64,000 bases of DNA from Microbacterium sp. AZCO (GTDB taxonomy: Bacteria; Actinomycetota; Actinomycetes; Actinomycetales; Microbacteriaceae). A program made the translations under genes and the position numbers. The notes under the pieces are model-generated. The model searched no databases and was not told the origin of the DNA. It was given only the letters and a program-made list of their open reading frames with translations. The stretch is taken from NCBI RefSeq assembly GCF_039614715.1, contig NZ_CP154857.1, positions 124,001 to 188,000 of the forward strand, written 5' to 3'. Below are positions 9,319 through 44,475 of the stretch, piece after piece; the first letter of the stretch is position 1; the number at the start of each line of letters is the position of its first letter.

Positions 9319-9351
9319 TATGGATCCACATATGATACTTTTGGATCCTGT
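9319..9351. promoter_or_regulatory. GntR operator pair A
   Basis: Boxes TATGGATCCACA (9319-9330) and TTTGGATCCTGT (9340-9351), GGATCC centres 21 bp apart, in the divergent region between the amidotransferase-like gene and the PLP enzyme gene. Same architecture as seven other pairs in the window. Confidence 0.85.
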
Positions 9352-9370
9352 TCGAGAGACGTGGAGTCCC

Positions 9371-10627
9371 ATGACATCGGTGCCCGCGGCAGACGCCGCA
9401 CGAGAAATCGCGGTCCTCCCGCAGGACGGCTCCGCGATCGATGTGGCGCGCGAGCGCGAGCTCACGCGCGGCGCCGGGTTGTCGCACCACTTCAATGCGG
9501 CAGGGTCCGCGCTTCCGACGACCGCGGTCGTCTCGGCGGTCGTCGCGCACCTGCGGCTCGAGGAGCGCGTGGGCGGCTACGAAGCCGCGGCGCAGATGAA
9601 GGAGGATGTGGAAGCGGTCTACCGGTCGGCCGGCACGCTCCTCGGCTGCGCCGCAGACGAGATCGCGCTGTTCGACAGCGCCTCGACCGGTCTCCGCGTC
9701 CTCCTCGACGCCCTCCGGCCCATGCCCGGGTCGCGCATCATCGCCTCCCGCAGCACCTATGTGAGCCACGCGCTCCACCTCATGACGCTGCAGAACGAGC
9801 ACGACGTCGACGTCGTGCTCGCCCCCGTGGACGATGGTCGGCGCGTCGACCTGGAGGCCCTCGAGTCGCTCCTCGCCGACGGGCGTCCCACGATCCTGAC
9901 CATCGCCCACGTACCCACATCGTCGGGGCTCGTCGAGCCGGTCGCCGCCATCGGACGCCTGGCGCGGAAGTACGACGCGGTGTACCTGCTCGACGCGACG
10001 CAGTCCGTCGGGCACCTCGACATCGACGTCGCCGCGATCGGGTGCCATGTGCTCGTGACGACCGGCCGCAAGTTCCTTCGTGCGCCCCGGGGCACGGCGC
10101 TCGCGTACGTCGAGCGACACTGCGCGGCGATGCTCGTCCCGACCGCGCCCGACGTCCGGGGCTCGCGGTGGCTCGGCGAGCGCGACTGGGACGTCACCGC
10201 CACGGCGCGGCGGTTCGAGACCTGGGAGGCGGGCATCGCCGGCCGGCTCGGCCTCGGCGTCGCCCTCGACGAAGCGCAGCGCCGCGGCATCCCCGAGACG
10301 GCCGCATGGCTGACGTCGACAGGAGCTCACGTCCGGGAGTCGCTGCGCGGCATCCCCGGCGTGACGATCGCCGATCCCGAAGGCGCCGATTCGGCGATCG
10401 TGACATTCCTCGTGGACGGGCTGACGGCCGCACAGACCGCCGCACGCCTCGCCGACCGTCGGATCCGGGTGGTCTCGGTGCCGGCGACCCACGGCCAGTG
10501 GGATCTGGGGGATCGTGCGATAACGTCCGTCGTGCGTGCCTCCCTGCACGTGTACAACGACGACGGCGACATTGCGAAGCTCCTCGAAGGCGTCGCGGAT
10601 GCCGCCCGAGAAGGAGCCCGCACATGA
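9371..10627 (+). CDS. Class V aminotransferase-fold PLP enzyme (EgtE/cysteine-desulfurase-like)
   Basis: 418 residues. PLP-binding lysine in TTGRKFLRAPRGTAL and the aspartate in LLDATQSVGHLD that contacts the cofactor. The GRKFLRAPRG motif is closest to EgtE-type C-S lyases and isopenicillin-N-epimerase-like members of the class V family. ATG 9371 is chosen (GGAG about 8 bases before; the frame runs open further upstream through the operator, which cannot be coding). The stop overlaps the next gene by 4 bases. A lyase, epimerase or transaminase role cannot be told apart from sequence. Confidence 0.82.
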   Translation: MTSVPAADAAREIAVLPQDGSAIDVARERELTRGAGLSHHFNAAGSALPTTAVVSAVVAHLRLEERVGGYEAAAQMKEDVEAVYRSAGTLLGCAADEIALFDSASTGLRVLLDALRPMPGSRIIASRSTYVSHALHLMTLQNEHDVDVVLAPVDDGRRVDLEALESLLADGRPTILTIAHVPTSSGLVEPVAAIGRLARKYDAVYLLDATQSVGHLDIDVAAIGCHVLVTTGRKFLRAPRGTALAYVERHCAAMLVPTAPDVRGSRWLGERDWDVTATARRFETWEAGIAGRLGLGVALDEAQRRGIPETAAWLTSTGAHVRESLRGIPGVTIADPEGADSAIVTFLVDGLTAAQTAARLADRRIRVVSVPATHGQWDLGDRAITSVVRASLHVYNDDGDIAKLLEGVADAAREGART

Positions 10628-11718
10628 GCTCCCTCGACGCGGACGTCCTCGTCCTCGGCCTGGGCGTCCACGGCAGCGCGACCGCCGCGAGTCTCGCGCG
10701 ACGCGGCGTCGACGTGCTCGCGGTCGACCGATTCACGCCGGGACATGCGCGGGGCTCCTCGCACGGTCGCACACGCATGATCCGCCGCGCCTACCCCAAC
10801 CCGGTGTGGAACGACTTCGTCGCGCGCGCCTTCGACGGGTGGGCCGAGCTCGAGCGCCAGACGGGCGAGACGCTCGTGCACCGCACGGGCGGTCTGTACG
10901 CGCACCACGGCCAGTCGCAGCTGCAGGGGCCGGACTGCGTCGTCGTCGACGACCGCGCGCGCATGGCCGAGCTCATGCCCGGCTTCGCGGTGCCCGAGGG
11001 CTACCGGGCCGTCCATGATCCGTCCGCCGGCGTCATCGAGGCATCCCGCGCGCTCACGGCGTTGCAGCGATCCGCGAGCGCGCACGGAGCTGAGCTGCGG
11101 TGGGGCGTGCGCGCCGAGGGGTGGGAGAGCATCCAGGGCGGCGTCCTCGTGCGCACCGACGCGGGCGACCTGCGCGCGCGAACGCTCGTGATCGCGGGCG
11201 GCAGCTGGATGGGAGCGCTGGTGCCCGAGCTCGCACCCCTGCTCGAGGTCTGGCGCATCCTGACCCTCACGGTCGCGGCCGGGCAGGCGGTGGGGCAGCC
11301 GCCGTCGCTCGGCGCGTTCTCGGTCGACCGCTCGGAGGGCCTCGTGTTCGGCATCCCGGATGCGGATGGCAACGGCGTCAAGCTCGGGGTGGACGCGGGC
11401 GCCGTGTGGGACCCCGAGACCCCCGTCGCCCCGCCGTCGGACGACGAGATCGCCACGCTGCAGGCCCTCCTCGCGGCATACGTGCCCGGCATCGACACGA
11501 CGCCCGTCGAGGCCGCGGCATGCCTGTACACGATGACGGCCGACAAGCGCTTCGTCCTGGGACCGCTCGGGCGCGCGCCGGAGGTGATCGTCGCCTCCGC
11601 GTGCTCGGGGCACGGCTTCAAGTTCGGGCCCGCGGTCGGCGAGGCGCTCGCAGATCTGGCGACGGGCGTCGCACGCGACGACCTCGCGTTCATCTCGACA
11701 TCCCGACGGGGGTTCTGA
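10624..11718 (+). CDS. FAD-dependent amine oxidase, monomeric sarcosine oxidase-like
   Basis: 364 residues of the DAO family. N-terminal Rossmann motif VLGLGVHGSATAASLARRG, then RGSSHGRTRMIR near residue 45. Near the C terminus CLYTMTADKRFVLG carries a Cys (residue 300) equivalent to the cysteine that binds FAD covalently in monomeric sarcosine oxidase, followed by SGHGFKF. Expected to oxidise a secondary or N-methyl amine to an imine or aldehyde with H2O2. ATG overlaps the preceding stop; part of the operon running to the copper oxidase. Confidence 0.9.
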   Translation: MSSLDADVLVLGLGVHGSATAASLARRGVDVLAVDRFTPGHARGSSHGRTRMIRRAYPNPVWNDFVARAFDGWAELERQTGETLVHRTGGLYAHHGQSQLQGPDCVVVDDRARMAELMPGFAVPEGYRAVHDPSAGVIEASRALTALQRSASAHGAELRWGVRAEGWESIQGGVLVRTDAGDLRARTLVIAGGSWMGALVPELAPLLEVWRILTLTVAAGQAVGQPPSLGAFSVDRSEGLVFGIPDADGNGVKLGVDAGAVWDPETPVAPPSDDEIATLQALLAAYVPGIDTTPVEAAACLYTMTADKRFVLGPLGRAPEVIVASACSGHGFKFGPAVGEALADLATGVARDDLAFISTSRRGF

Positions 11719-11720
11719 TC

Positions 11721-13256
11721 ATGACGATCGCGCTGGCCGCGCCGCATCCGGAAGCCGTCGCCGCGGGGGAGCGCGCCGTCGCCGCCGGCGGCAACGCCCT
11801 GGATGCCGCGCTCGCCGCGGCCGTGATGCTGACGGTCGTCTACCCGCACCAGTGCGCACTGGGCGGCGATCTCATCGCCCTCGTGCGGTCGCCGGAGGGC
11901 GCGACGACGGCCGTCGTCGCCGCCGGCACATCGCCTGCCGGCATCGCGGAGGCCGCCGCGGGCTGGACCGAGGTGCCCCGGCAGGGCGCGCACTCCGTCA
12001 CGGTGCCGGGCATGGTCGCGGGCTGGCGCGCGATCGCCGCGCTCGGCGCGCGGTCGGGCCTCGTGTCGGCCTTCGCGGATGCCGCGGCCGTCGCCGACGC
12101 AGGCACCGAGGTCAGCGCGGGGCTCGGCCGTGCGCTGGTGTCGCGCGCCGAGGCCGTGCTCGCCGATGCCGGCATGCGCGCCGTGTTCGCCGCCTCCGGC
12201 ACGCCTCTCCTCGAGGGGGAGATGCTGCGGCAGCCCGCCCTCGCGGACACCTTGCGCATGCTCGCCGACGATCCCGACGACTTCTACCGGGGCCGCATCG
12301 CGCGGTCGCTCGTGGCGACGCTGCGCGCCGCGGGCGGCACGCACACGGAGGACGACTTCGCGGGGTACGAGCCCGAGGTCGGGTCCTCCCTCACCCGCAC
12401 GATCGGCGCGCAGACGTGGCACGTCGCTCCGCCGCCGTCGGTCGGCGCCGTCCTCATAGGCGTCGTCCGCGCGGCGTCAGACCCGGCATCCCCTTCCCCC
12501 GCGGGTGCGCGGCTGGTGGACGCCGCGATCCGCGGCGTGCAGGCGCGCGCGGCCGCGCTCGGCGATCCCCGCACGAGCGAGGTGGATCTCGACGTGCTCC
12601 TCGACCTCGCCGCCGCCGTGCCCGCTCCGGCATTCGCCGAGCCCCGCCCGCTCGGCGACACGGCGGCCGTCACGGCCCTCGACGACGAGGGTTGGGGCGT
12701 CACGATCGTCCAGAGCGTCTACCAGACCTTCGGTGCGGGCCTGCTCGACCCGGCGACCGGGATCGTGCTGCACAACCGGGGGAGCGCCTTCAGCGTCGAC
12801 CCGGCCTCGCCCGCCGCGATCCGGCCGGGCGCCCGCCCGCCGCACACGCTGTGCCCCGCCATCGTCGACGCCCCCGACGCGACGGTCGTGGCGGGCTGCC
12901 AGGGCGGGCGCGCACAGGCGTGGATCCTCGCGCAGGTGCTCCCCGACGCGGTCGACGCGTCGTACGAGCTGCGGGGCATCCTGGCGCGTCCTCGCTGGGT
13001 GGTGGGCGACCGCGACCTCGGCCAGGACGTCCTGTCGCTCGTTGCCGAGCCCGGCGTCGCCGACGAGGTGCTCGCGCGCGCCGAGGAGCGGGGTCTCCCC
13101 GTCGTCCGGTTCACCGGCCCCGCCGATGAGGCCGGGCACGTGCAGCTCGTCCGGTGCGCGAGCGGCCTGCTGTCGAGCGCGAGCGACACCCGTGCGGACG
13201 GCGTCGGCACCCTCATCGGCACCGACAGAACCTCGACGGAAGAGAGCCGTGCATGA
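11721..13256 (+). CDS. Gamma-glutamyltransferase/hydrolase homologue 1 (cytosolic)
   Basis: 511 residues, Ntn-hydrolase GGT family. GNALDAALAAAV near the N terminus and PLGDTAAVTALDDEG, where Thr314 aligns with the catalytic Thr that follows autocleavage. No signal peptide, unlike the exported GGTs of the classical glutathione pathway, so it likely acts on cytosolic gamma-glutamyl intermediates. ATG 11721 is two bases after the previous stop; its own stop overlaps the copper oxidase start. Confidence 0.85.
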   Translation: MTIALAAPHPEAVAAGERAVAAGGNALDAALAAAVMLTVVYPHQCALGGDLIALVRSPEGATTAVVAAGTSPAGIAEAAAGWTEVPRQGAHSVTVPGMVAGWRAIAALGARSGLVSAFADAAAVADAGTEVSAGLGRALVSRAEAVLADAGMRAVFAASGTPLLEGEMLRQPALADTLRMLADDPDDFYRGRIARSLVATLRAAGGTHTEDDFAGYEPEVGSSLTRTIGAQTWHVAPPPSVGAVLIGVVRAASDPASPSPAGARLVDAAIRGVQARAAALGDPRTSEVDLDVLLDLAAAVPAPAFAEPRPLGDTAAVTALDDEGWGVTIVQSVYQTFGAGLLDPATGIVLHNRGSAFSVDPASPAAIRPGARPPHTLCPAIVDAPDATVVAGCQGGRAQAWILAQVLPDAVDASYELRGILARPRWVVGDRDLGQDVLSLVAEPGVADEVLARAEERGLPVVRFTGPADEAGHVQLVRCASGLLSSASDTRADGVGTLIGTDRTSTEESRA

Positions 13257-15421
13257 CCATCACGTCGACCGATCAGAATCGACACGAACACCTCACAGCC
13301 ACCACGGAGGGGGCAGCCATGCTCGCGCGCCACTGGTCCGATCCGCTCACCCCCGACGAGATCGCCGGGGTGGCCGCACTCGTGCGCACGGACCCCCGGA
13401 TCGGCGCCCACCCCCGGTTCTGGGGCATCGCGGTGGAGGAGTCGCTCGCGCGCACGCTCGCGCCCGGTCAGGGACGCCCCGTGCGCCTCGTCGTGATGAA
13501 CCCCGATGAGCACGCCGCGTGGGAGATCACGGCGTGGACCGCCGGCACCGACCGCGAGGCATCCCTCGGCTCCTGGTCGCCGGTCGACGCGAAGCGCCCC
13601 GGCGTCTCATCCGATGAGGCGCGCATGGTCGCGCAGGCCGCGCGGAACCACCCGCTCCTCAAAGAGGCGCTCGCCAAGCGCGGGATCACCGACACGTCGC
13701 TCGTCTGGGTCGACCCCGAGTCGATCACGGGCTTCGAGCCCGAGGGCTTCGAGGACCGCCGCCTCTCGTGGGGCTCGGTGTGGCACCGCGAGTCGGCGGA
13801 CGACAACGGCTACGCGCGCCCCGTTGCGGGTCTCGTGCCGATCCTCGACCTCGAGACGCTCGACATCATTCAGCTCGAAGACCACGGCGTCATCCCCATG
13901 ACGACGGAGGGCGGCAACTACCGCTCCGGCACGTGGGGGCCCGACCGCACCGTCGCGCCCCTCGAGATCACGCAGCCCGAGGGGCCCGGATTCGAGGTCG
14001 ACGGGCACCGCGTGACGTGGCAGAACTGGTCGTTTCGGATCGGCTTCACGCACCGCGAGGGCCTCGTGCTGCACGACATCGAGTACCGCGACGGTGACGT
14101 CGTGCGGCCCGTGCTGCGGCGTGCGTCGATCAACGAGATGTACGTGCCGTATCTCGACTCCGACCCGACGGCGTATCGCAAGAACTTCTTCGACTGGGGC
14201 GAGTACGGCGCGGGTCCGCTGACCTCCTCGCTCGAGTTCGGCTGCGACTGCCTCGGCGAGATCCACTACTTCGACGCGCACTACCTCAACGGCTATGGCG
14301 AAGCCAAGACGATCACGAACGGCGTGTGCCTGCACGAGGAGGACCACTCGATCCTCTGGAAGCACGTCAACACGCGCACCGGCGAGGCGGACGTTCGCCG
14401 CTCCCGCCGGCTCGTCATCTCGTTCTTCGCGACCGTCGCGAACTACGACTACGGCTTCTACTGGTCGCTGCACCAGGACGGCAACATCGAGCTCGAGGTC
14501 AAGCTCACCGGCATCCTGTCCGTCTCGGGCATCGCCGACGACACGTCGCCCGCGTTCGGGCGCATGGTGAGCCCCAACGTGCAGGCGCCCACGCATCAGC
14601 ACTACTTCGCCGTGCGCCTCGACACCGCCGTGGACGGCGCCAAGAACCGGCTCGTCGAGGTGCACGCCGAGATCGAGGACGACGACGAGCTCAACCCGTA
14701 CGGCAACGCCGTGAAGATGGTGTCAGAGACGATCGCGTCCGAGAAGGATGCCGCGCGCATGGCCGATGCGTCGCGTGCCGTGCACTGGCGAATCGAGAAC
14801 ACCGAGAAGAAGAACCGCTTCGGCGAGTCGACGGCGTACCGCCTCACGCTCCCGAATACGACGCGACTCTTCGCGAAGCCGGGCAGCGTCGTGGCCCGCA
14901 AGGCGCCGTTCGTCGCGAAGCACCTGTGGGCGACGGCCTACGACCCGGCCGAGCGGTTCATCGCCGGCGAGTACCCCAACCAGGCCGACCTCTCGGCCGA
15001 GGGGATCACGGCGTGGCAGGAGGCGGACCGTCCCCTCGACGGCGCCGAACTGGTCGTCTGGCCCGTCGTGGGCGTGCACCACTACCCGAAGCCCGAGGAG
15101 TGGCCGATCATGCCGACGCACCGCATCGGGCTTCGGCTCGAGCCGGACGGGTTCTTCGTGCGCAATCCCTCGCTCGACGTGCCGCCGTCGGAGAGCTGCC
15201 ACGTGCCGTCGCCCGGCGGCGTCGCGCCGGCCCGCCACGACCACGGCGCACACGCGGGGCACGACCACGGCGCACACGCGGGGCACGACCACGGCGTGCA
15301 CGGCGGCGCCGGTGCACACGCGGGTCATGACCACACCGGGCATGACCACACCGGGCACGACCACGACGGGCACGACCGCGGTCACGGGGGCCACGAGAAT
15401 CACGGGCACGCCCACCACTGA
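13253..15421 (+). CDS. Copper-containing primary amine oxidase with His-rich C-terminal tail
   Basis: 722 residues. Topaquinone precursor Tyr398 in VANYDYGFYW; copper ligands His448 and His450 (HQHYFAV) and His610 (GVHHYPKPEEWP), with spacing as in phenylethylamine/tyramine oxidases. Oxidises a primary amine to an aldehyde plus NH3 and H2O2. The last 62 residues contain 23 His in HDHGAHAG and HDHTG repeats, absent from typical bacterial homologues of about 640 residues; a copper-binding or storage role is inferred. ATGA overlap with the GGT gene and TGATG overlap with the membrane protein downstream show one operon. Confidence 0.93.
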   Translation: MTITSTDQNRHEHLTATTEGAAMLARHWSDPLTPDEIAGVAALVRTDPRIGAHPRFWGIAVEESLARTLAPGQGRPVRLVVMNPDEHAAWEITAWTAGTDREASLGSWSPVDAKRPGVSSDEARMVAQAARNHPLLKEALAKRGITDTSLVWVDPESITGFEPEGFEDRRLSWGSVWHRESADDNGYARPVAGLVPILDLETLDIIQLEDHGVIPMTTEGGNYRSGTWGPDRTVAPLEITQPEGPGFEVDGHRVTWQNWSFRIGFTHREGLVLHDIEYRDGDVVRPVLRRASINEMYVPYLDSDPTAYRKNFFDWGEYGAGPLTSSLEFGCDCLGEIHYFDAHYLNGYGEAKTITNGVCLHEEDHSILWKHVNTRTGEADVRRSRRLVISFFATVANYDYGFYWSLHQDGNIELEVKLTGILSVSGIADDTSPAFGRMVSPNVQAPTHQHYFAVRLDTAVDGAKNRLVEVHAEIEDDDELNPYGNAVKMVSETIASEKDAARMADASRAVHWRIENTEKKNRFGESTAYRLTLPNTTRLFAKPGSVVARKAPFVAKHLWATAYDPAERFIAGEYPNQADLSAEGITAWQEADRPLDGAELVVWPVVGVHHYPKPEEWPIMPTHRIGLRLEPDGFFVRNPSLDVPPSESCHVPSPGGVAPARHDHGAHAGHDHGAHAGHDHGVHGGAGAHAGHDHTGHDHTGHDHDGHDRGHGGHENHGHAHH
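15236..15370 (+). repeat. In-frame tandem repeats encoding the His-rich tail
   Basis: Two perfect 24-base units (15236-15259, 15260-15283) plus a partial third, then three 15-base units (15326-15340, 15341-15355, 15356-15370). Both periods are multiples of three, so copy-number change would lengthen or shorten the tail without a frameshift. Confidence 0.85.
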
Positions 15422-15966
15422 TGGCCGACGTCCTCCTGCATGCGGGCGCGCTCGGCGCAACGGCGCTGAGCATATGCTGTCTCGCGGCATCCCGCCCGCG
15501 CGTCCGCATGCAGGAGTTGGTGCTCGCTGTCGCGATGCTCCTCGCCATGACGGATGTCGTGCTGGGGCTCTCGCTGGTCGCGCCGGTCTGGTGGGCGGCG
15601 GTCATCCTCGCGACAGCCATGCTCTCGACTGCCGGGCTGCGCGACCGCGGCTCCTCACGTGCCGTGCGGTCAGCTCGTGCGATGGATGCGCTGGGAGCCA
15701 TCCTCATGGCGACACTGCTGCTGCTCATGGCCGGCCCGGGCGCCGCAGGCGACGACGCTCACGCGGGGCACGGCGTGTCGTCGACAGCCCTTGCCTGCGC
15801 CGTCGTCGGTGCGAGTGCGGTCTTCGCGGCGGCATCCGTCCACATGGCGGTGACCATGCGGATGCCGCGGGCCGCGGCATCCTTCCCGGTATACGTCCTC
15901 CGGCGCGCAGCGCCCCTCGCGATGGGTGCTTCCGTGCTGCTCATGGCCGCTGTCGCGGTCGTCTGA
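15421..15966 (+). CDS. Integral membrane protein, DUF5134-like
   Basis: 181 residues with about five hydrophobic helices and a short His-containing loop (DDAHAGHG) after the third or fourth. It resembles DUF5134-type actinobacterial membrane proteins. Translationally coupled to the copper oxidase (TGATG), so a role in copper supply or in anchoring the oxidase is an attractive but unproven idea. Confidence 0.65.
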   Translation: MADVLLHAGALGATALSICCLAASRPRVRMQELVLAVAMLLAMTDVVLGLSLVAPVWWAAVILATAMLSTAGLRDRGSSRAVRSARAMDALGAILMATLLLLMAGPGAAGDDAHAGHGVSSTALACAVVGASAVFAAASVHMAVTMRMPRAAASFPVYVLRRAAPLAMGASVLLMAAVAVV

Positions 15967-16040: not shown

Positions 16041-16760
16041 TCAGCCCTTGTAGACGATCGAGGAGCGCCGCTCGTACCAGCGGGCCAGCTGCTCTCCGGC
16101 CTTGAGGACGTGCTCCCGCATCTCGGCGCGCGCGGCCTCGGCGTCGCCGCGCTCGAGCGCGTCGAGGATGCGCTCGTGCTCGTGGAAGTTCTCCTCGCGG
16201 TGACGCGCGTCGTTCACGAGGAGCTGCGCGGACACGTTGCGCGGGAACGTCTCGTTGATCTCGTCGATCGCGCGGGCGAGCCGGGCATTCCCCGAGAGCT
16301 CGGCGATCGTGCTGTGGAAGATGTCGTTCTCGCGCCTGCTGTTCAGGGCCGCGCTGCGCGTCTCGTCGCTCTCGGCGACCGACCGGTCGTACATCGCGCG
16401 GTTGGCGTTGCGGAGCTTCTCGATGTCGGACTGCGAGGCCTGCGCGATGGAGAGCGATGCCGCGAGGGCCTCGAGCTCGGCGCGCACCTGATAGGCCTCA
16501 CGGACCTCCCACGGGGCGGGGACGCGCACGACGGCGCCGCGATTGGGCACGACGTCGATGAGACCGCCGGTCTGGAGCTGCCGCAGCGCCTCGCGCACCG
16601 GCGTGCGGCTCACGCCGAAGTCGTTGGCCAGCTCGGCCTGCCGCAGCTGCGAGCCGATGGCGATCTCGCCGGACATGATGCGCGCGCGGATCTTCGCGGC
16701 GATGTCGTCGACAAGAGCGTGGCCGGACATCTCCGACGGGAACTGCTCCTGGACAGTCAT
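16041..16760 (-). CDS. GntR-family regulator, FCD (VanR-like) subfamily; probable regulon controller
   Basis: 239 residues: winged helix-turn-helix at about 15-80 (ASN-DFGVSRTPVREALRQL region) and a C-terminal FCD ligand-binding domain with the metal-site pattern FHSTIAELSGN and HEHERILDAL. Start at 16760 is chosen because AAAGGGA precedes it; the longer frame crosses the promoter region. Divergent from the reductase/Rieske operon with operator pair B between them, so autoregulation is expected. FCD regulators of vanillate type bind ATTGGATCCAAT-like palindromes, which is the repeated sequence here. Confidence 0.92.
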   Translation of the reverse strand: MTVQEQFPSEMSGHALVDDIAAKIRARIMSGEIAIGSQLRQAELANDFGVSRTPVREALRQLQTGGLIDVVPNRGAVVRVPAPWEVREAYQVRAELEALAASLSIAQASQSDIEKLRNANRAMYDRSVAESDETRSAALNSRRENDIFHSTIAELSGNARLARAIDEINETFPRNVSAQLLVNDARHREENFHEHERILDALERGDAEAARAEMREHVLKAGEQLARWYERRSSIVYKG

Positions 16761-16868
16761 GCGATCCCTTTCCGCCCCTCCTCCGCATACGGCGAGGCGT
16801 TTCGCACCGTAGCAGACAGGCACCTCTATCCGAACGCAACGGCGGACGAATGTCTACAATCATGCCAT

Positions 16869-16901
16869 ATTGGATCCAGATTACATCTGTTAGGATCCAA
16901 A
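16869..16901. promoter_or_regulatory. GntR operator pair B
   Basis: ATTGGATCCAGA (16869-16880) and TTAGGATCCAAA (16890-16901), centres 21 bp apart, in the divergent gntR/reductase region. A TACAAT at 16855-16860 could be the -10 of the rightward promoter, which would place both boxes over and just after the transcription start. Confidence 0.88.
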
Positions 16902-16923
16902 CATGACGGCACCGGAGGACTCG

Positions 16924-17850
16924 ATGGAACAGGCGGCCCGAGTGCGCACGATGACGCTCGAGGCGGACGACGTCCTCGCCGTGGAGCTCGAGCCGCTCGA
17001 CGGCCCTTCGTCGGAGTGGACGGCGGGCGCCCACATCGATCTCGTTCTGCCTGACGCCCCCGTGCGCCAGTACTCGCTCACCGGCCGGCCCGGATCCGCG
17101 CGCTACCGCATCGCCGTGCTCCGCGAAGAGCGCAGCCGAGGGGGATCGAAGGCCGTCCACGAGCGCCTGCGCCCCGGAGACATCGTCAGGCTCCGCGGTC
17201 CCCGCAACCATTTCGCGCTCGAGCCCGCCGCCGAGTACCTCTTCGTCGCCGGGGGCATCGGGATCACCCCGATCGTTCCGATGCTCCACGCCGCCGAGCG
17301 AGCCGGTGCGCGCTGGCACCTGCTCTATCTCGGTTCGACGCGGCGCCGAATGGCGTTCCTCGAAGAGATCGAGTCGATCGGCGGGGGCGCCGTGACCGTC
17401 GTGGTCCGCGATGAGGGTGGGCGAGCCGACCTCGCGGAGGTCCTCGCGGCGCACCCCGAGGCATCCGTCTACGCGTGCGGACCCGAGCGCATGCTCGCGG
17501 CGCTGCAGGAGCTGCTTCCTGACGAGACGGGCCGGCTCCGGTTCGAGTACTTCGCCGCACCCGAGGTCGAGTACGAGCCGGGCGGCGCCTTCTCGATCCG
17601 TCTCGCCCGCACGGGGGTCGAGCTTCCCGTCGAGCCCCAGCAGTCCGTGCTCGAGGTCATGCGCGCGGCAGGCGTCGAGGTGCTCACCGATTGCGAGGAG
17701 GGCATCTGCGGCAGCTGCGAGACGCACGTCCTCGAGGGCGAGGTCGAGCACCGGGACTTCGTCCTGACGTCGAAGGAGCGGGAGGCCATGGACTGCATGA
17801 TGGTCTGCGTCTCGCGGGCCTCGTGCCCTCTTCTCGTCCTCGATGCGTAA
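16924..17850 (+). CDS. VanB-like oxygenase reductase (flavin/NAD plus 2Fe-2S)
   Basis: Electron transfer from NAD(P)H to the Rieske oxygenase encoded next. Flavin motif RQYSLTG, NAD motif AGGIGITPIVPML, and a C-terminal plant-type ferredoxin domain with CEEGICGSCETHVLEG and a distal Cys. About 308 residues, the size of phthalate/vanillate-type reductases. ATG 16924 is preferred because GGAGG (16914-16918) precedes it; ATG 16903 is in frame but only two bases from operator box B2. Confidence 0.92.
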   Translation: MEQAARVRTMTLEADDVLAVELEPLDGPSSEWTAGAHIDLVLPDAPVRQYSLTGRPGSARYRIAVLREERSRGGSKAVHERLRPGDIVRLRGPRNHFALEPAAEYLFVAGGIGITPIVPMLHAAERAGARWHLLYLGSTRRRMAFLEEIESIGGGAVTVVVRDEGGRADLAEVLAAHPEASVYACGPERMLAALQELLPDETGRLRFEYFAAPEVEYEPGGAFSIRLARTGVELPVEPQQSVLEVMRAAGVEVLTDCEEGICGSCETHVLEGEVEHRDFVLTSKEREAMDCMMVCVSRASCPLLVLDA

Positions 17851-17855
17851 ATCAA

Positions 17856-17888
17856 ACTGGATACAATAACTACAAGATCGGATACCGA
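17856..17888. promoter_or_regulatory. GntR operator pair C
   Basis: ACTGGATACAAT (17856-17867) and ATCGGATACCGA (17877-17888): weaker boxes, both with GGATAC cores, but again exactly 21 bp apart, in the 51-base gap between the reductase and Rieske genes. This suggests the oxygenase gene has its own regulated promoter. Confidence 0.7.
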
Positions 17889-17901
17889 GGGGTAGATCGC
17901 G

Positions 17902-19239
17902 ATGCTGAAGCAGGAAGACAACGAGAAGATCACGCGTTCCGGTCCCGGCACGCCGCTGGGCAACCTGCTGCGGTCGTACTGGCAGCCCGCGGCGCTCGTC
18001 TCGGAGATGCCTGGCGAGCGTCCCGTCAAGGCCGTGCGGATCATGAGCGAGGATCTCGTTCTGTTCAAGAAGCGCGAGGGCTGGGGTCTCATCAGCCGGT
18101 ACTGCGCGCACCGGGGCGTTGACCTCTCCTACGGGCGCCTGGAGGAAGACGGCATTCGCTGCCTGTATCACGGGTGGCTCTATGACGGTCAGGGACGATG
18201 CGTCGAGCAGCCCGCGGAGCCGGACCACAGCCAGTTCCTCGGCAAGATCCGCATCTCGAACTACCCGTGCGTCGAGAAGAACGGGATCATCTTCACCTAT
18301 ATGGGCGCGGGCGACCCGCCGCCCTTCCCGCACTACGACTGCTTCGTCGCTCCCGACGAATACACGTTCGCCTTCAAGGGCCTGTGGGAGTGCAACTGGC
18401 TGCAGGGCCTGGAGGGCGGGATCGACCCGAGCCACGTGTCGTTCCTGCACCGCTTCATCCAGGAAGACCCTCGCGAGATGTACGGCCAGCAGTTCGCGGA
18501 AGAGGTCGAGGGCACGGGCAAGAAGCTCTCGATGCTCGTCGGCGAGAGCTACCGCCCCGACATCGAGGTCGAGAGCGCCGACCACGGCCTGCGCGTCTAC
18601 GCGCTGCGCCAGCTCACGGAGGACATCAAGCACGTCCGCGTGACGAACCTGCTGTTCCCGAACGCATTCGTCGTCCCCTTCGGGAACACGAAGGTCTTCA
18701 CGCAGTGGCACGTGCCGATCGACGACGAGAATCACTACTGGTTCATGATCTGGTACGACTTCGCCGAGCCGACCGACAAGGAGACGCTGCTCCAGCAGCG
18801 GCTCGACGGCGTCTCGCTGCCCGACTACCGACCTCTGCGCAACCGGAGCAACAACTGGGGCTTCGACCCGCAGGAGCAGAAGGAGCTCACCTACACGGGC
18901 ATGGGGCTCGACATCAACGTCCACGACCAGTGGGCCGTCGAGAGCATGGGACCCATCCAGGACCGCACGGTCGAGCGTCTCGGCATCTCCGACCGCGCTG
19001 TCACGGCGAACCGGCGGATGCTGCTGCGCGCCATCGACTCGTTCGCGGCGGGCGGCCAGACGCCGTCGCACCCCGTCAGCGAGGCGGAGGCCGCGGCGCT
19101 CACCGGTCCCCTCGCGATGGACACGATCGCGGCGAACGACGCGTGGCAGTCGCGGTGGGTGCAGCGCGAGCAGGAGCGGCGGGATGCCTCGCCCTGGGCC
19201 GCGCCGCTCGAGACGGCCGAGGAGACCGTCGATGCGTGA
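17902..19239 (+). CDS. Rieske non-haem iron oxygenase, alpha subunit
   Basis: 445 residues of the phthalate/vanillate-type aromatic-ring or demethylating oxygenases. Rieske cluster ligands Cys68, His70, Cys87 and His90 (CAHRG ... CLYHGW); mononuclear iron residues in GIDPSHVSFLH (Asp175, His178, His183). The preceding VanB-like reductase supplies electrons. Likely hydroxylation or O-/N-demethylation; the substrate is unknown. GAGGGG precedes ATG 17902. The end overlaps the GS-like gene by 8 bases. Confidence 0.93.
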   Translation: MLKQEDNEKITRSGPGTPLGNLLRSYWQPAALVSEMPGERPVKAVRIMSEDLVLFKKREGWGLISRYCAHRGVDLSYGRLEEDGIRCLYHGWLYDGQGRCVEQPAEPDHSQFLGKIRISNYPCVEKNGIIFTYMGAGDPPPFPHYDCFVAPDEYTFAFKGLWECNWLQGLEGGIDPSHVSFLHRFIQEDPREMYGQQFAEEVEGTGKKLSMLVGESYRPDIEVESADHGLRVYALRQLTEDIKHVRVTNLLFPNAFVVPFGNTKVFTQWHVPIDDENHYWFMIWYDFAEPTDKETLLQQRLDGVSLPDYRPLRNRSNNWGFDPQEQKELTYTGMGLDINVHDQWAVESMGPIQDRTVERLGISDRAVTANRRMLLRAIDSFAAGGQTPSHPVSEAEAAALTGPLAMDTIAANDAWQSRWVQREQERRDASPWAAPLETAEETVDA

Positions 19240-20758: not shown

Positions 20759-20785
20759 ACCGCACGACATCGACAGCGAGGAAAC

Positions 20786-22252: not shown

Positions 22253-22295
22253 CGCCTGCTACAGCGAGCACCCTTCGACGGAACCGAGAGCTGAC

Positions 22296-30532: not shown

Positions 30533-30565
30533 GCAGGATCCCTTGTGGCTCGGATTGGATGCAAT
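30533..30565. promoter_or_regulatory. GntR operator pair D (RidA side), with a third weak box
   Basis: GCAGGATCCCTT (30533-30544) and ATTGGATGCAAT (30554-30565, one mismatch to the ideal palindrome), centres 21 bp apart. A further TTGTATCCAC at 30575-30584 lies 20 bp beyond the second box. Confidence 0.82.
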
Positions 30566-30603
30566 TATCGTGCCTTGTATCCACTAGAGATCTCCAGCGT
30601 GAT

Positions 30604-30633: not shown

Positions 30634-30666
30634 TACGGATCCACAAGCTCGTAGATTGGATCCACA
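30634..30666. promoter_or_regulatory. GntR operator pair E (ABC importer side)
   Basis: TACGGATCCACA (30634-30645) and ATTGGATCCACA (30655-30666), centres 21 bp apart, 87 bases upstream of the binding-protein ATG. Possible -10 elements (TAGATT at 30652-30657) overlap the second box. Confidence 0.88.
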
Positions 30667-32322: not shown

Positions 32323-32364
32323 CCGCGTCCACCGCCCGGGCCGGAATCGAGAGGAGACTCGAAC

Positions 32365-33432: not shown

Positions 33433-33434
33433 GC

Positions 33435-35165
33435 GTGGCAGACACCACTTCGCCCATCGAGACCGCGACCTCGGAGAAGCCTCGCGCGTTCGCCTGGAAC
33501 GGCGGACTCATCGCAGGCCTCGTCATGCTGGCGATCATCGCCCTCGTCGCGATCTTCGCGCCGATCCTCCTGGGAGACCAGGCCAGCGGTCTCGGAAGCG
33601 GTCCGCCGAACTCGGGCTCGACCCCGGAGCACCCCCTCGGCACCGACACCCTCGGCCGCGACATGCTCGCTCGCACGCTCGTCGCCACGCGCCCCACGGT
33701 CCTGATGGCGACGGTGTCGACGGCGCTCGCCTCGATCGCCGGCATCGCGGTCGGCGTCGCGATCTGGCTGGCGCCGCGCCGCGTGCGCCAGTTCGGGCTT
33801 CGGTCGATCGAGTTCGCCGTGAGCTACCCGACCATGCTGGTGGCGATCATCGTCGCGGCGATCCTGGGCCAGGGCATGGTGCAGGTCGTCGTCGCGATCG
33901 CCGTCGCCAACACTGCCGGCTTCGCCCGGCTGACCGCGAACCTGGCTGCACGCATCGCCTCCAGCGAGTACGTGACGACCTCCCGGCTCATGGGCGTCCC
34001 CACTTCGCGGATCGCGCTGCGGCACGTGCTGCCGAACATGGCCGAACCGACGCTGATCCTGGTCGCCGGGGCGTTCGCGGGCACCCTCGTGGAGATCTCG
34101 GGCCTCTCCTTCCTCGGACTCGGCGCCCAGTCGCCCGCGTACGACTGGGGGACCCTGCTCAACGACGGTCTCAGCAAGATCATGGTCAACCCGATCGTCA
34201 TCGTCGGTCCGGCCTTCGCGCTGACCTTCGCGTCGCTGGCAGCCCTCCTCGTGGGCGACGGCCTCGCCGCGGCGGCGAACCCCCGCTCCCATAATCGGCA
34301 GGCCCGACTCGTGCGGTCGACGCAGGCCGCGTCCGCGTCTCCCGTCGCCGATGACGTCGTGCTGGTGGCCGAGGGCATCACCGTCACACACCAATCCAGC
34401 GGCCGGGAGCTCGTCTCCGACGTGTCGTTCACCATCCGGCGCGGCGAGGTGCTGGGAATCGTGGGCGAGTCCGGCTCGGGCAAATCGCTCACCGCCTCGG
34501 TCGTGGCGCGACTCCTCGGCGAGGGGCTCACCGCATCCGCCAGGCGGCTCGAGCTGGCGGGCACGGATCTCCTCGGGCGCGTGTCCGACCGCAGGCTCGC
34601 CTCGAGCATCGGGCTCGTGTACCAGGACCCCGGGACGGCACTCAATCCCGCGCTGGTGCTCGGCAGCCAACTCACCGACGTGCTACGGCTGCGTCTCGGG
34701 AAGAGCCGCCGCGCCGCGACCGAGACTCTGCTTGCGGGGTTCCGCGATGTGCGTCTCTCCGATCCGAAAGGCCGCCTGCGCCAGTACCCCCATCAGCTCT
34801 CGGGCGGCATGAAGCAGCGCGCGATGATCGCCTCGGCGATGAGTCCTCAGCCGGACCTCCTCATCGCGGACGAGCCGACCACGGCGCTCGACGTGACGGT
34901 GCAGCGCGAGGTTCTCACAGTCCTGAAGCGCATGAACCGGGAGTCCGGGACCGCCGTGCTGTTCATCTCGCACGATCTCGGTGTCGTGCGGGCGCTGTGC
35001 GACCGGGTGCTCGTCCTCAAGGACGGCGCGATCGTCGAGCGGATCGACGACGCGCAGGACCTCGCCGACGGGAAGGTCGAGCATCCGTACACGAAGCGGC
35101 TCCTGGCCGCGACGCCCGTCGTGTCGTTGCCGGATCGACTGGTCCAGAAGGAGGTCGGGGTATGA
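33435..35165 (+). CDS. ABC-importer fused permease (DppC type) and ATPase (DppD type)
   Basis: 576 residues, GTG start three bases after the previous stop. Residues about 25-285 are a DppC-like permease (HPLGTDTLGRDMLART motif, EAA region SSEYVTTSRLMGVPTSRIALRHVLPN); about 310-570 are an ABC ATPase with Walker A GESGSGKS, signature LSGGMKQR and Walker B LLIADEPTTALD. Such fusions occur in actinobacterial Dpp/Opp systems. No frameshift or internal start is needed, so it is read as one polypeptide. Confidence 0.9.
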   Translation: MADTTSPIETATSEKPRAFAWNGGLIAGLVMLAIIALVAIFAPILLGDQASGLGSGPPNSGSTPEHPLGTDTLGRDMLARTLVATRPTVLMATVSTALASIAGIAVGVAIWLAPRRVRQFGLRSIEFAVSYPTMLVAIIVAAILGQGMVQVVVAIAVANTAGFARLTANLAARIASSEYVTTSRLMGVPTSRIALRHVLPNMAEPTLILVAGAFAGTLVEISGLSFLGLGAQSPAYDWGTLLNDGLSKIMVNPIVIVGPAFALTFASLAALLVGDGLAAAANPRSHNRQARLVRSTQAASASPVADDVVLVAEGITVTHQSSGRELVSDVSFTIRRGEVLGIVGESGSGKSLTASVVARLLGEGLTASARRLELAGTDLLGRVSDRRLASSIGLVYQDPGTALNPALVLGSQLTDVLRLRLGKSRRAATETLLAGFRDVRLSDPKGRLRQYPHQLSGGMKQRAMIASAMSPQPDLLIADEPTTALDVTVQREVLTVLKRMNRESGTAVLFISHDLGVVRALCDRVLVLKDGAIVERIDDAQDLADGKVEHPYTKRLLAATPVVSLPDRLVQKEVGV

Positions 35166-35935
35166 GCGGTCCGATGGTCGATGTGCAGGGCCTCGACGTC
35201 TCGTTCGGCTCGGCGCACGTGCTGCGCGGGGTCGACCTCGCCGTTGAACGCGGGCGGACAGTCGGCATCGTCGGAGAATCGGGATCGGGCAAATCCACGC
35301 TGGCGAAGGTGCTCGTGGGGGAGGTGCGCCCCTCGGCCGGGCGCGTCGTCGTAGACGGAGACGATCTCACCCGGCGCCACCGCGCCACCCTCCGGCGGCA
35401 CCGGCGGCGCACGCAGATGATCCCGCAGGACCCCTACTCTTCGTTGTCCCCCCGCCGGACGATCGCGCAGACGCTCGCGGAGGCCATCGATCCGGTGCGC
35501 GCCCGCGTCTCCGCGCACGAGGATCAGATCGCATCGTGGCTCCGGCTCGTCGGTCTCAAGCCCGAGATGATGCACCGCTATCCCCATGAGTTCTCAGGCG
35601 GACAGCGACAGCGCATCGCGATCGCACGCGGGCTCGTGATCCGTCCGGACATCGTGATCGCAGACGAGATCACCTCCGCGCTGGATGTGTCCGTGCAGGC
35701 GCAGATCCTCGATCTGCTGGCGGAGATCAAGGAGTCCCTCGGGATCACGGTGCTGTTCATCTCCCACAACCTCGCGGTCGTTCAGCGGGTGAGCGATGAG
35801 GTGGTGGTTCTCTACCGCGGCGAAGTCGTGGAGTCGGGTCCGGTCGAACGCATCTACGCCGACCCCCGGCATCCGTACACCCGGCGGCTTCTGGACGCGG
35901 ACCCGGGCTCGCCCGGCTTCCGGCTCGAGAACTGA
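35162..35935 (+). CDS. ABC-importer ATPase, DppF type
   Basis: 257 residues. Walker A GESGSGKST, Q-loop near QMIPQDPYSSLSPR, signature FSGGQRQR, Walker B IVIADEITSALD and the C-terminal HPYTRRLL of oligopeptide-transporter ATPases. ATG overlaps the fusion-gene stop by 4 bases. Pairs with the ATPase half of the fused protein to energise import. Confidence 0.93.
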   Translation: MSGPMVDVQGLDVSFGSAHVLRGVDLAVERGRTVGIVGESGSGKSTLAKVLVGEVRPSAGRVVVDGDDLTRRHRATLRRHRRRTQMIPQDPYSSLSPRRTIAQTLAEAIDPVRARVSAHEDQIASWLRLVGLKPEMMHRYPHEFSGGQRQRIAIARGLVIRPDIVIADEITSALDVSVQAQILDLLAEIKESLGITVLFISHNLAVVQRVSDEVVVLYRGEVVESGPVERIYADPRHPYTRRLLDADPGSPGFRLEN

Positions 35936-35937
35936 CC

Positions 35938-37218
35938 GTGGTGCGCGCTCCCGTGCGTCTGCCCGCTACCCCGATCGCCGAGGGCGCGACGACGTTCCGC
36001 GGCGCCACCCTGATCGACGGGGAGGGCGGCGCGCCGGTGCCGGATGCCGAGATCGAGGTGCGCGACGGCGTCATCGCCTACGCGGGCCCCGGCCGGCAGG
36101 GGAGAGACGCGCCCGGCAGCCGCGTCGTCGATCTGACGGGGACGTGGGTGCTGCCCGGCTTCGTGGACGTGCACGTGCACCTCGCGATGGTCCCGGACGC
36201 CGCCGAGCAGCAGCGGGCATGGTTCCCGGAGGAGGCCGTGCTGGCCGTCGCAGCGCAGCTGCGCACCACGCTCGAAGCGGGGATCACGACGGCCCGCGAC
36301 CTCGACGGTCTCACCCCGGGCTACCGCCTCGCAGTCGAGCGCGGCACCGCGATCGGACCACGGCTGCATCTGGCCGTCGCGATGCTGTCGCCGACGGGCG
36401 GGCACGCCGATCCGGTGCTCGCCAACGGAACACTGCCCGCGTGGGCGCTGCGCGCCGGGATGCCGGAGTCCGGGGTCGTCGACACCGATGACGACGTCGT
36501 GCGGGCGGTGCGCCGGCTCCTGCGCATGGGAGCCGACGCGATCAAGGTCTCGACCTCCGGCGGCTCCGGCTCGCCGACGGACGAGCCGGAGGACGCAGGC
36601 ATCCCCGCGGAGCAGGTGCGCCTGATCCGGCGCCTCGTCGAGGAGCGCGGCGGCCGTCCTATCACGGCGCACGCCCTGACCGATGCCGCGGCGCGGGCCG
36701 CGGTGGTCGGGGGTGCCGACAGCATCGAGCACGGCTACGACCTGTCGGACACCACGATCGATCTCATGCTCGAGCACGGCACGGTGCTCGTTCCGACCCT
36801 GAGCACCCTCATGCGCGACATCGGCCCGCGTGTGGGCGAGGAGCGGCGGCGCGCGCGTGAGAGCATGCGCCGACGCGGGATGGACTCGGTCCGTCGCGCG
36901 ATCGCCGCGGGAGTGCCGGTGGCGCTCGGCACCGACGCAGGCGTGGTCCCGCACGGCCGCAACCTGGTCGAACTGGCGTGGCTGGTGGAGGCCGGGCTGA
37001 CCCCGAGCGCAGCGATCCACGCCGGAACGATGGCGGGCGCTCGCGTCCTCGGCCTCGCGGACCGGATCGGATCCGTGACGGCGGGCAAGGTCGCCGACCT
37101 GGCCATCACCGCTGGCGATCCGCTCGAGTCGATCGGCGCACTGGGTGAGCCGGGCGCAGTGCGGATGGTCGTGCAGTCGGGTCGGGTCGTCACCGATCTC
37201 GACCGGCGAGTCGCGTAG
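35938..37218 (+). CDS. Metal-dependent amidohydrolase (imidazolonepropionase/prolidase-like)
   Basis: 426 residues with a full binuclear site: VDVHVHLAM, probable carboxylated Lys in ADAIKVSTSGG, ITAHAL, IEHGYD and LGTDAG. GTG start two bases after the ABC ATPase stop, so the hydrolase is co-transcribed with the importer and probably acts on the imported compound, for example opening a peptide or cyclic amide. Its 3' end lies in a 48-bp tandem duplication. Confidence 0.9.
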   Translation: MVRAPVRLPATPIAEGATTFRGATLIDGEGGAPVPDAEIEVRDGVIAYAGPGRQGRDAPGSRVVDLTGTWVLPGFVDVHVHLAMVPDAAEQQRAWFPEEAVLAVAAQLRTTLEAGITTARDLDGLTPGYRLAVERGTAIGPRLHLAVAMLSPTGGHADPVLANGTLPAWALRAGMPESGVVDTDDDVVRAVRRLLRMGADAIKVSTSGGSGSPTDEPEDAGIPAEQVRLIRRLVEERGGRPITAHALTDAAARAAVVGGADSIEHGYDLSDTTIDLMLEHGTVLVPTLSTLMRDIGPRVGEERRRARESMRRRGMDSVRRAIAAGVPVALGTDAGVVPHGRNLVELAWLVEAGLTPSAAIHAGTMAGARVLGLADRIGSVTAGKVADLAITAGDPLESIGALGEPGAVRMVVQSGRVVTDLDRRVA

Positions 37219-38706: not shown

Positions 38707-38739
38707 AATGTATCCTATCCAGTAGATAATGGATCCACT
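38707..38739. promoter_or_regulatory. GntR operator pair F
   Basis: AATGTATCCTAT (38707-38718) and AATGGATCCACT (38728-38739), centres 21 bp apart, between the divergent cyclase-family and amidohydrolase-2-like genes. An extra partial ATCCA half lies between them. Confidence 0.82.
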
Positions 38740-40390: not shown

Positions 40391-40423
40391 ATTGGATCCT
40401 ATTATGTGAGTAATGGATCCCCT
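40391..40423. promoter_or_regulatory. GntR operator pair G
   Basis: ATTGGATCCTAT (40391-40402) and AATGGATCCCCT (40412-40423), centres 21 bp apart, between the cupin and the second allophanate hydrolase. An in-frame ATG at 40413 falls inside the second box and is unlikely to be the start of the rightward gene. Confidence 0.88.
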
Positions 40424-42993: not shown

Positions 42994-44415
42994 TCAGCGC
43001 AGGGCGTCGGCCAGGTGCGACGCCGCGCGCCACGACAGCGCCTCGATCGTCTCGACGGGCCCGCGGCCGCCCGTCGTCGGGAACGTCGACGACCCCACGA
43101 CGACGAGGCCGGGCACACCGTGGAAGCGCCCGAAGCCGTCCACGACCGACGTCGCCGGGTCGCGGCCCATGCGCGCGCCGCCGTACAGATGCGTTCCCAG
43201 GGGCTGTGGGCGCAACGGCGGGCGCCACGTTCCCCGCGCGCCTGCGGCGAGCAACCACTCCGCGGCATGCCCGGCCAGTACGTCGGCGCGCCGCACGTCG
43301 TCGTCGGCGAGGGCGAAGGTGAGGCGCGCGACGGGGCGGCCCGTCGCGTCGCGATGCGAGAGGTCGAGGTCGATCGCGTTGCCTGCGCGCGGGAGCTGGT
43401 CGGGCTGGGCCCAGACGGTGCCGATCGACGAGTGGTGCGTGCGGACCCAGGCCGCGGCATCCCGTCCGCGCGTGATCTCGGGACGAAGGCCCTCGGCGAC
43501 GTCGCGCAGCCGGTCGTCGCTCCATGGTCCCGTCATCGCCGCCTGCAGGATCGATCCGCCCACCACACCGTGGCGCGCGCCCATCCCTTCGCCCTCGAAC
43601 TCGGCGACCGCCACGGCGGACGCCGGTCCTGCGCTGCGGCGCCCCAGGTCGATCCCGGGGAAGTCGCCGTGAACGACGAAGGCGTTGTGCGCCATGAACC
43701 ACCGTCCGACGCGGCCCCCGGCCGTGAGCCCCGACAGCAGCAGCAGCCGGACGGTCGGGATGACGGATGCCGCGACCACGGCGGCGCCGCAGGCGATCGT
43801 GCGCGCGGACCCGTCGGCGTCGACGATTTCGACGCCGGCGATCGCCCCCGTGGATCCCTGCACGAGCGCCGTCGCCGTGGCATCCACGACCTCGATGTCG
43901 CGCCCGCGCAGGAGGAACGACGAATCCTTCGCGGCGGCCGCCGGAGCCGCCCGGGGGCGCCAGCCCAGCGCGCCGGCGGCGATCGTCATGCGGTCCGTCC
44001 ATGACGTGGGCGGACGCGGTGCGACGCCTGTCGCCGACTCGATGAGGTCGTACCAGGGCGCGAGGTCGTCGGGCCCGATGGGCCAGTCGACGAGGTCGAC
44101 GCCCTGCGGGATCACGCCGCCGCGGGCGAGCGTCGCCGTCCGCGCCCGGAACGACCAGTCGTCGAGCCGATACGCCTGCGGGGCGGCGAGGAGCTTCGAG
44201 CCGCCGACGCCGTCGCGTCCAGCCGGAGGAGTGCGCTGCGGCACGGCGCGCTGGTCGGCGTGGGTGCGCAGGGTCGGCGCGGGCGCCGCCATCGGCGCGC
44301 GCTCGCCGGGAGCGGGCTTCGGCTGCACCGCCGTGACGGTGTAGCCCGCATCCGCCAGCACCCGGGCGGCGACGATCCCGGCCGGGCCGAGACCGACGAT
44401 CACGACATCCGCCAT
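42994..44415 (-). CDS. GMC-type FAD oxidoreductase 2
   Basis: 473 residues. N-terminal VVIVGLGPAGIVAARVLADAG binds FAD; C-terminal GTHLYGGARMG and FPTTGGRGPVETIEAL are the GMC_oxred_C pattern of gluconate-dehydrogenase/pyranose-oxidase relatives, with His in THLYG. Start at 44415 with GGGAGGA upstream. Only distantly related to the first GMC protein. Divergent from TauE across operator pair H and convergent with the MBL gene, with 8 bases between stops. Confidence 0.87.
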   Translation of the reverse strand: MADVVIVGLGPAGIVAARVLADAGYTVTAVQPKPAPGERAPMAAPAPTLRTHADQRAVPQRTPPAGRDGVGGSKLLAAPQAYRLDDWSFRARTATLARGGVIPQGVDLVDWPIGPDDLAPWYDLIESATGVAPRPPTSWTDRMTIAAGALGWRPRAAPAAAAKDSSFLLRGRDIEVVDATATALVQGSTGAIAGVEIVDADGSARTIACGAAVVAASVIPTVRLLLLSGLTAGGRVGRWFMAHNAFVVHGDFPGIDLGRRSAGPASAVAVAEFEGEGMGARHGVVGGSILQAAMTGPWSDDRLRDVAEGLRPEITRGRDAAAWVRTHHSSIGTVWAQPDQLPRAGNAIDLDLSHRDATGRPVARLTFALADDDVRRADVLAGHAAEWLLAAGARGTWRPPLRPQPLGTHLYGGARMGRDPATSVVDGFGRFHGVPGLVVVGSSTFPTTGGRGPVETIEALSWRAASHLADALR

Positions 44416-44442
44416 GAGATCCTCCCGGTTCGTGTTTCCAGG

Positions 44443-44475
44443 TTCGTATCCTAGATTAGTGGAATTGGATCCACA
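44443..44475. promoter_or_regulatory. GntR operator pair H
   Basis: TTCGTATCCTAG (44443-44454) and ATTGGATCCACA (44464-44475), centres 21 bp apart, between the divergent GMC and TauE genes. Last operator pair seen in the window. Confidence 0.85.

Follow-up and report, generated by a model that had tools for sequence, protein, structure and literature searches.

The results presented here indicate that eight pairs of short palindromes in a Microbacterium genome are, with high probability, operators of a regulator of the GntR family with an FCD domain, each pair presumably being bound by two cooperative dimers that would repress transcription by occlusion and be released by a ligand. The pairs, together with the gene for the regulator (gntR, 16041-16760), lie in a stretch of 64,000 nucleotides of Microbacterium sp. 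AZCO (the window; G000:C1:124001-188000 of a single-contig 4.23-Mb genome; 70% G+C), where they stand in the promoter regions of a large gene cluster of this soil bacterium, apparently for the degradation of amine-type compounds. The twin boxes are very probably a real, so far undescribed way for a regulator to grip DNA. Direct inspection of the window confirms what a preliminary description of its sequence had reported, namely eight pairs at the positions in Table 1, in every one of which (8/8) the two 12-mers start exactly 21 bp apart. Scored with a matrix made from the 16 boxes of the window (32 symmetrised rows), 13 of the 16 boxes reach 13.0-19.8 bits.

Table 1. Paired boxes, regulator gene and gene runs of the cluster (window coordinates; scores for left/right box; gaps from pair to ATG, smaller gap first)
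Feature	Position	Strand	Score (bits)	Gap (bp)	Context or content
Pair 1	9319..9351		16.7/16.6	19/31	between divergent class-II amidotransferase-like gene (-, ATG 9287) and PLP-enzyme gene (+, ATG 9371)
Pair 2	16869..16901		18.3/18.7	1/108	5' of reductase ATG (16903; 1 bp) and off gntR ATG (16760, -; 108 bp)
Pair 3	17856..17888		17.4/9.5	13	5' of Rieske oxygenase ATG (17902)
Pair 4	30533..30565		7.6/17.5	34	off ATG (30498) of - strand gene with weak YjgF match
Extra box	30574..30585		13.0		20 bp from 30554 box
Pair 5	30634..30666		13.0/18.5	87	5' of ABC substrate-binding protein ATG (30754)
Pair 6	38707..38739		17.1/17.8	24	5' of Amidohydro_2 gene (ATG 38764)
Pair 7	40391..40423		19.8/14.2	1/52	off cupin ATG (40389, -; 1 bp) and 5' of allophanate hydrolase (ATG 40476; 52 bp)
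Pair 8	44443..44475		9.5/18.5	17/27	between GMC-type oxidoreductase (-, ATG 44415) and TauE-like gene (+, ATG 44493)
gntR	16041..16760	-			GntR winged helix and FCD, 239 aa
Gene run behind pair 1	9371..15966	+			PLP enzyme, FAD amine oxidase-like, gamma-glutamyltransferase-like, copper amine oxidase, small protein without match
Ferredoxin-type reductase	16903..17850	+			downstream of pair 2
Gene run behind pair 3	17902..29988	+			Rieske oxygenase, GS-like glutamyl-amine synthetase, aldehyde dehydrogenase, isochorismatase-like, GMC oxidoreductase, gamma-glutamyltransferase-like, amidohydrolase, phosphotriesterase-like, amidase
Gene run behind pair 5	30754..37218	+			peptide/nickel-type ABC transporter (binding protein, two permeases, two ATPases), amidohydrolase

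The pairs are rare outside the cluster. No 21-bp pair occurs in any of 40 dinucleotide-shuffled windows at thresholds that give eight in the real window. The pattern GKATMC-N15-GKATMC has seven matches in the window vs. 0.05 expected, and eight in the whole 4.23-Mb genome. Seven of these eight fall within window positions 9322-44472, and the remaining one, at contig position 3439788, is flanked by G/C at both boxes. The same pattern reversed, as a control, has no match in the genome, the pattern one base shorter has none, and the pattern one base longer has two, both beyond the window, such that a genome-wide scan at spacings of 20, 21, and 22 bp, as proposed in the preliminary description, gives 0, 8, and 2 matches. 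Equally good 21-bp pairs across the rest of the genome, the outcome named there as counting against a regulon, are not what the scan finds. A looser pattern, GGATCC-N15-GGATCC with up to two mismatches, was rejected as unspecific (376 genome matches vs. 108 for its reversed control); at 0-1 mismatch it has 15 genome matches, 7 of them in the cluster.

The matrix derives from the window's own boxes, and the spacing test was therefore moved to other genomes. All sets except the window were pooled, identical contexts were removed, and each strong box (at least 15 bits) was scanned at offsets 12-60 for a partner of at least 5 bits, a score with a background chance of 0.0012 per position; both boxes of one pair may count among the strong boxes. 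A partner at exactly 21 bp is found for 124 of the 135 distinct strong boxes, at 20 bp for 4, and at 22 bp for 1, and each remaining offset has 0-6 partners (mean 1.0; 6 at offset 16). The claim that the spacing is fixed thus stands as a strong preference for 21 bp; as a claim of exactness it does not, in that 20- and 22-bp pairs exist and one site possibly comprises three boxes. At that site, the 20-bp neighbour of the 30554 box at 30574 outscores the 21-bp partner, and 30533/30554/30574 may be a triple site with steps of 21 and 20 bp. Two further arrangements were rejected: a helix-phased array across 30533-30666, where the two box groups are out of phase at 10.5 bp per turn, and a third box in mid-spacer, where a logo of 92 distinct pairs gives a mild A/T preference only.

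The pairs recur in relatives that carry the regulator. In 299 genomes of the family, the window GntR protein has 12 homologues besides itself at E 1e-40, ten with 60-65% identity and two with 42%. A strict pair lies no more than 1.5 kb from gntR for 9 of the 10 close orthologues vs. 0 of the 2 distant ones, and all ten other-genus regions around the 60-65% orthologues (20 kb on each side; 11.3 kb in total for G176) contain pairs. At 13 of 13 named loci a pair lies beside gntR, with 21-bp spacing at 12 and 20-bp spacing at L039; named loci with pairs include Herbiconiux and Patulibacter medicamentivorans, the latter presumably a member of another class. In a class-wide draw of 394 genomes, four have the gene at E 1e-60: besides the genome of the window, these are one further genus member and two genomes from another family, both of which contain several 21-bp pairs. 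The comparison of orthologous promoters suggested in the preliminary description thus shows pairs, mostly at 21 bp, around the close orthologues of the regulator.

Within the genus, the pairs co-occur with the regulator. Among 366 genus genomes, including the window's own, 22 hold an orthologue of the regulator (threshold E 1e-60) and 25 hold the strict pattern (WGGATCCW-N13-WGGATCCW), which is present in 22 of 22 orthologue holders vs. 3 of 344 non-holders (one match each). The corresponding Fisher p is about 2e-32, a value that is indicative only, related genomes not being independent and shared ancestry being uncorrected. The strict pattern was used in place of a variable-spacing pattern that proved too unspecific, with matches in 287 of 366 genomes and 32 matches in the regulator-less G485. 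Co-occurrence ties the pair to the regulon, but alone it cannot separate GntR from other genes of the cluster; gene content near gntR differs among the regions fetched, and the pairs persist. From this co-occurrence and the Pfam assignment of the protein to GntR and FCD, we conclude that the regulator of the pairs is very probably the GntR protein at 16041-16760, as had been proposed. The TetR-type protein at 4894-5574 was rejected for this role: a relative of it is present in 2 of 10 orthologue regions, and no pair lies near it in the window. In one genus genome, G442, the regulator is present twice, with copies of 76% and 71% identity on separate contigs, and there are six strict pairs.

The features of the protein are those of an FCD-type DNA-binding regulator with a conserved addition at its C terminus. 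Pfam places a GntR winged helix (PF00392; 69.0 bits vs. a cut-off of 27) before an FCD domain (PF07729; residues 88-218; 78.1 bits vs. 24.3) that is helical in a structure model with a mean pLDDT of 84.7 and a first helix starting at residue 13. Residues D146, H149, H195, and H217, which may be the FCD metal ligands (Asp and three His), are invariant in 26 sequences. The best solved relative by both sequence and fold is PmiR of Pseudomonas aeruginosa (7xp0/7xp1), Foldseek matches to the model include both PmiR and Atu1419, and the closest named relatives are from Microbacterium. The last predicted helix (207-236) runs past the Pfam FCD match, and its block-mean pLDDT is 87 over residues 221-230 but falls to 52 at the end. 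The tail itself, LA[RH]WYERRSSTVF (window 16041-16106), is near-invariant in 24 sequences of one alignment (A1), the window's included, and is missing in the two 42% relatives of that alignment, which are also without pairs. In a set of 121 proteins, comprising two of the window and the best 119 of 2038 homologues, a tail pattern matches 113, and each of the remaining 8 deviates from it at one residue. The conserved tail is a candidate dimer-dimer contact surface. The preliminary description took it as established that VanR-type FCD regulators bind ATTGGATCCAAT; the papers in which a search located that string are, to judge by their titles, on other subjects. Compared with the TKGT/ACMA core of the subfamily, the operator fits in its outer TTG/CAA, but at the inner base the 32 symmetrised rows show 27 G, 4 T, and 1 C.

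The pairs form a promoter-linked set, as the preliminary description had it (Table 1; start codons were chosen by the analyst, and gene calls were made from codon-position G+C and family matches rather than with a full gene finder). The promoter of the reductase gene is the clearest case. There, the window plus 35 loci yielded 32 hits, amounting to 22 distinct sequences, in a search that required a right-box core, a nearby ATG, and a left-box score of at least 0, and that required neither the left core nor TG, promoters that did not fit the search pattern being uncounted. In all 22 sequences the left-box core GGATCC is invariant, as is a TG 5' of the right box; the right box itself is TTAGGATCC in all but one sequence, where it is ATAGGATCC. 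Mean conservation of the spacer is 0.60. In the window the right box of this promoter sits within TGTTAGGAT, and the sequence TAGGAT occupies -12 to -7 from the ATG. Because TAGGAT has this position, and because TG-T-TAGGAT is an extended -10 form, the reductase transcript is probably leaderless. Across all pairs, TAxxxT in a box goes with an ATG 0-9 nt downstream (29/71 vs. 7/168). In the genus, a GTCC-like element with partial conservation (0.77-0.82 per column; window 16855-16858) ends ~10 bp upstream of the reductase left box and is a possible site for a second regulator.

According to the mechanism that we propose, each 12-bp palindrome (consensus ATTGGATCCAAT, core GKATMC) would take one regulator dimer, and the 21-bp spacing would make neighbours of two dimers on the same side of the helix, probably touching and binding cooperatively; where the pair lies over a core promoter, the dimers would exclude RNA polymerase. 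At the reductase promoter, the gene-side box would cover the extended -10 element, and the other box, two turns upstream, would lie on the -35 region. The proteins would come off, and the cluster be switched on, when the FCD domain takes up a small-molecule ligand, which is probably a pathway intermediate of amine breakdown. The best reading appears to be that two dimers on the same face repress by occlusion, because one box lies over the -10 element and the second over the -35 region, and we infer cooperativity because the spacing is strict.

Four other explanations have to be weighed. The pairs might be accidental, or merely reflect a frequent palindrome, since GGATCC alone is present in 33 copies in the window and loose pair patterns match widely, but the empty shuffles, the concentration of seven of eight genome matches in the cluster, and the retention of pairs in other genera leave this a negligible probability. 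It is unlikely that the boxes are independent GntR sites, with no contact between dimers, whose 21-bp distance is dictated by the geometry of -10 and -35 elements. The reductase promoter would agree with this, having TTGGAT in the left box near -33 in addition to TAGGAT in the right box, and so would a second gene, the cupin gene, with TAGGAT in the same placement (its box, read on the - strand, is ATAGGATCCAATcATG). However, 21 bp between hexamer starts gives a 15-bp spacer, which is short for a housekeeping promoter; pair 5, 87 bp from its start codon, still has a spacing of 21 bp; and the 21-bp partner is present for 124 of 135 strong boxes, although TAxxxT occurs in just 36 of the 239 orientations of boxes.

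ECF-type promoters also have GGA-type -35 elements, and it could be supposed that an alternative sigma factor, or another regulator, uses the GGATCC pairs while the gntR gene merely travels along, a distinction that co-occurrence by itself does not make. This we consider very improbable. In the ten orthologue regions, which were chosen by gntR, other genes vary and the pairs stay; a relative of the window TetR protein is present in only two of these regions (up to 20 kb on each side), and its gene in the window lies outside the paired stretch; and the boxes are palindromic, at varied distances from starts, and in several cases between divergent genes, unlike a sigma-factor promoter, which was ruled out on orientation and distance. 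The outer TTG/CAA, moreover, fits a GntR/FCD site (PMC4494728). Finally, one regulator tetramer might bridge both boxes in the manner of the BusR ruler. The fixed spacing would suit such a tetramer, BusR (GntR and RCK_C) reads a bipartite motif 22 bp apart (PMC8517857), and the FCD relative Atu1419 is tetrameric (PMC7797058). Nevertheless, the model of the protein predicts a winged helix and an FCD-type helical domain, with no long coiled-coil between two DNA-binding heads, and Atu1419 has its two DNA-binding sites ~10 nm apart and loops 190 bp (PMC7797058), whereas 21 bp corresponds to ~7 nm; a bridging tetramer is therefore improbable.

Several observations weigh against the reading that we prefer, that is, paired operators occupied by two cooperative GntR dimers. 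Three boxes are weak (30533, 7.6 bits; 17877 and 44443, 9.5 bits each). Among the 135 strong boxes, 11 are without a partner at 21 bp, including 7 that lack one anywhere at 20-22 bp, so that one box alone may be enough at certain sites. Spacings other than 21 bp comprise the 20-bp pair beside gntR at L039, one 20-bp pair at L078, and a weaker 22-bp pair directly upstream of gntR in 6 of 10 other-genus regions (G045, G168, G171, G143, G195, and G072). A strict pair also occurs in three genus genomes that do not have the regulator and in which no relative of it is found at E 1e-20. The association of -10 sequence with ATG comes largely from one orthologous promoter, that of the reductase. Occlusion, which the preliminary description had suggested for the pairs in general, is upheld for the reductase promoter, where, by sequence only, a box overlies the extended -10 element; pairs 4, 5, and 7 (the last for allophanate hydrolase) are 34-87 bp from the gene and give no comparable sign of -10 occlusion. 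The core of FadR-subfamily sites is GT..AC (PMC4494728), vs. mostly G at that base here.

Of the three exceptional genus genomes, one resembles a chance match, its spacer being rich in G/C; the single strict pairs of the remaining two (G509:C43:24115 and G531:C1:193322) may be relics or chance. In the 22-bp pairs upstream of gntR (L022-L023, L025-L028, and L031-L036), inner halves are better conserved, as judged by eye. The 22-bp pair before gntR may be a tuned autoregulatory site.

The arrangement is a variant of multi-site GntR operators and not a new kind of system. Atu1419 of Agrobacterium fabrum (VanR group) resembles the system described here in its Pfam FCD domain, its short palindrome, the position of that palindrome over a -10 element and, at one promoter, its position between -10 and -35; it differs in the palindrome itself, ATGTATACAT, in having sites 190 or 109 bp apart, and in forming a tetramer able to loop DNA, and the part of the paper available describes no fixed tandem 21-bp pair for it (PMC7797058). 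NanR of E. coli likewise represses a catabolic regulon through several dimers bound cooperatively to adjacent repeats at set spacing, but its repeats are three GGTATA and its cooperativity comes from a 32-residue N-terminal extension (PMC8012715), whereas the operator here has two palindromes and the protein has no such extension, its conserved extra part being C-terminal. BusR of Streptococcus agalactiae shares a fixed-distance bipartite operator on the same DNA face, but has an RCK_C domain and no FCD, forms a coiled-coil-ruler tetramer, and binds DNA on c-di-AMP (PMC8517857); the GntR protein here has FCD in place of RCK_C.

Suvorova et al. (2015; PMC4494728) describe, in the FadR subfamily, a divergon class with double sites at near-constant distance, which they read as cooperative. 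Their extra boxes or half-sites lie 7-12 nt from the site centre or edge, unlike the 21-bp pair, of which the part of the paper available contains no instance, and boxes at -20/-21 nt serve there as random controls, which implies that boxes so far away were not regarded as typical of the family. For HypR and GdhR, "21 bp" refers to a footprint or a deleted inverted repeat and not to a pair spacing, and PxpR has one 17-bp site, in the parts of those sources available. The suggestion that the arrangement may be undescribed accordingly survives: a literature search aimed at the operator or the family, subscription papers lying outside it, gives no description of the pair, although absence in print is not certain.

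If true, the proposal would give the FCD regulators, which in bacteria form a large family of metabolite sensors, a cooperative operator that is both compact and in-line; the multi-site cases of the family that we found described (NanR arrays and Atu1419 loops) work otherwise. The regular operator would make regulon members traceable by a one-line pattern and the amine pathway and its inducer directly testable, and could supply a ready two-box switch for high-GC actinobacteria. A more far-reaching version, which we put forward tentatively and at somewhat less than even chances, is that a lineage of FCD-type GntR proteins distributed across several actinobacterial groups reads the two-palindrome operator as a unit, with two dimers locked together at two helical turns by the C-terminal tail to form an in-line cooperative switch without looping, that it controls a large uncharacterised cluster for amine breakdown, and that in some genera the pair at its own promoter, longer by one base pair, tunes autoregulation.

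About 30 genes between 8499 and 45293, counted by eye, could be under the control of the regulator. Annotations are best NCBIfam or Pfam matches, often under the curated cut-off; overall, the genes of the cluster include two of gamma-glutamyltransferase-like type, two for GMC-type oxidoreductases, and one for allophanate hydrolase. No solved structure matches the product of the class-II amidotransferase-like gene (8499-9287) at E 0.001. Beside the cluster, at 20-7402, lie urea carboxylase, another allophanate hydrolase, the TetR-type regulator, and a permease, with no paired boxes. Compared with the two-component Rieske dioxygenase and the amidotransferase-like AtdA2 of the Atd/Npa module, the Rieske subunit here has a LigXa_C match, and no second Rieske subunit was noticed among the genes scanned. 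The best match of the GS-like protein in the PDB is 8wwu (E 5.8e-121), which is NpaA1, the enzyme that glutamylates 1-naphthylamine (PMC11335346); the enzyme here is a putative glutamyl-organic-amine synthetase, and the substrate class is likely to be an amine activated by glutamylation. The NpaA/Atd modules for arylamine glutamylation also have a GS-like enzyme with a Rieske oxygenase and reductase nearby (PMC11335346), but the cluster here is much larger, with its two gamma-glutamyltransferase-like genes, copper amine oxidase, amidohydrolases, and peptide-type ABC transporter. Within it, positions 16903-20758 hold the reductase, the Rieske oxygenase, and the NpaA1-like GS enzyme, as in an amine-glutamylation pathway.

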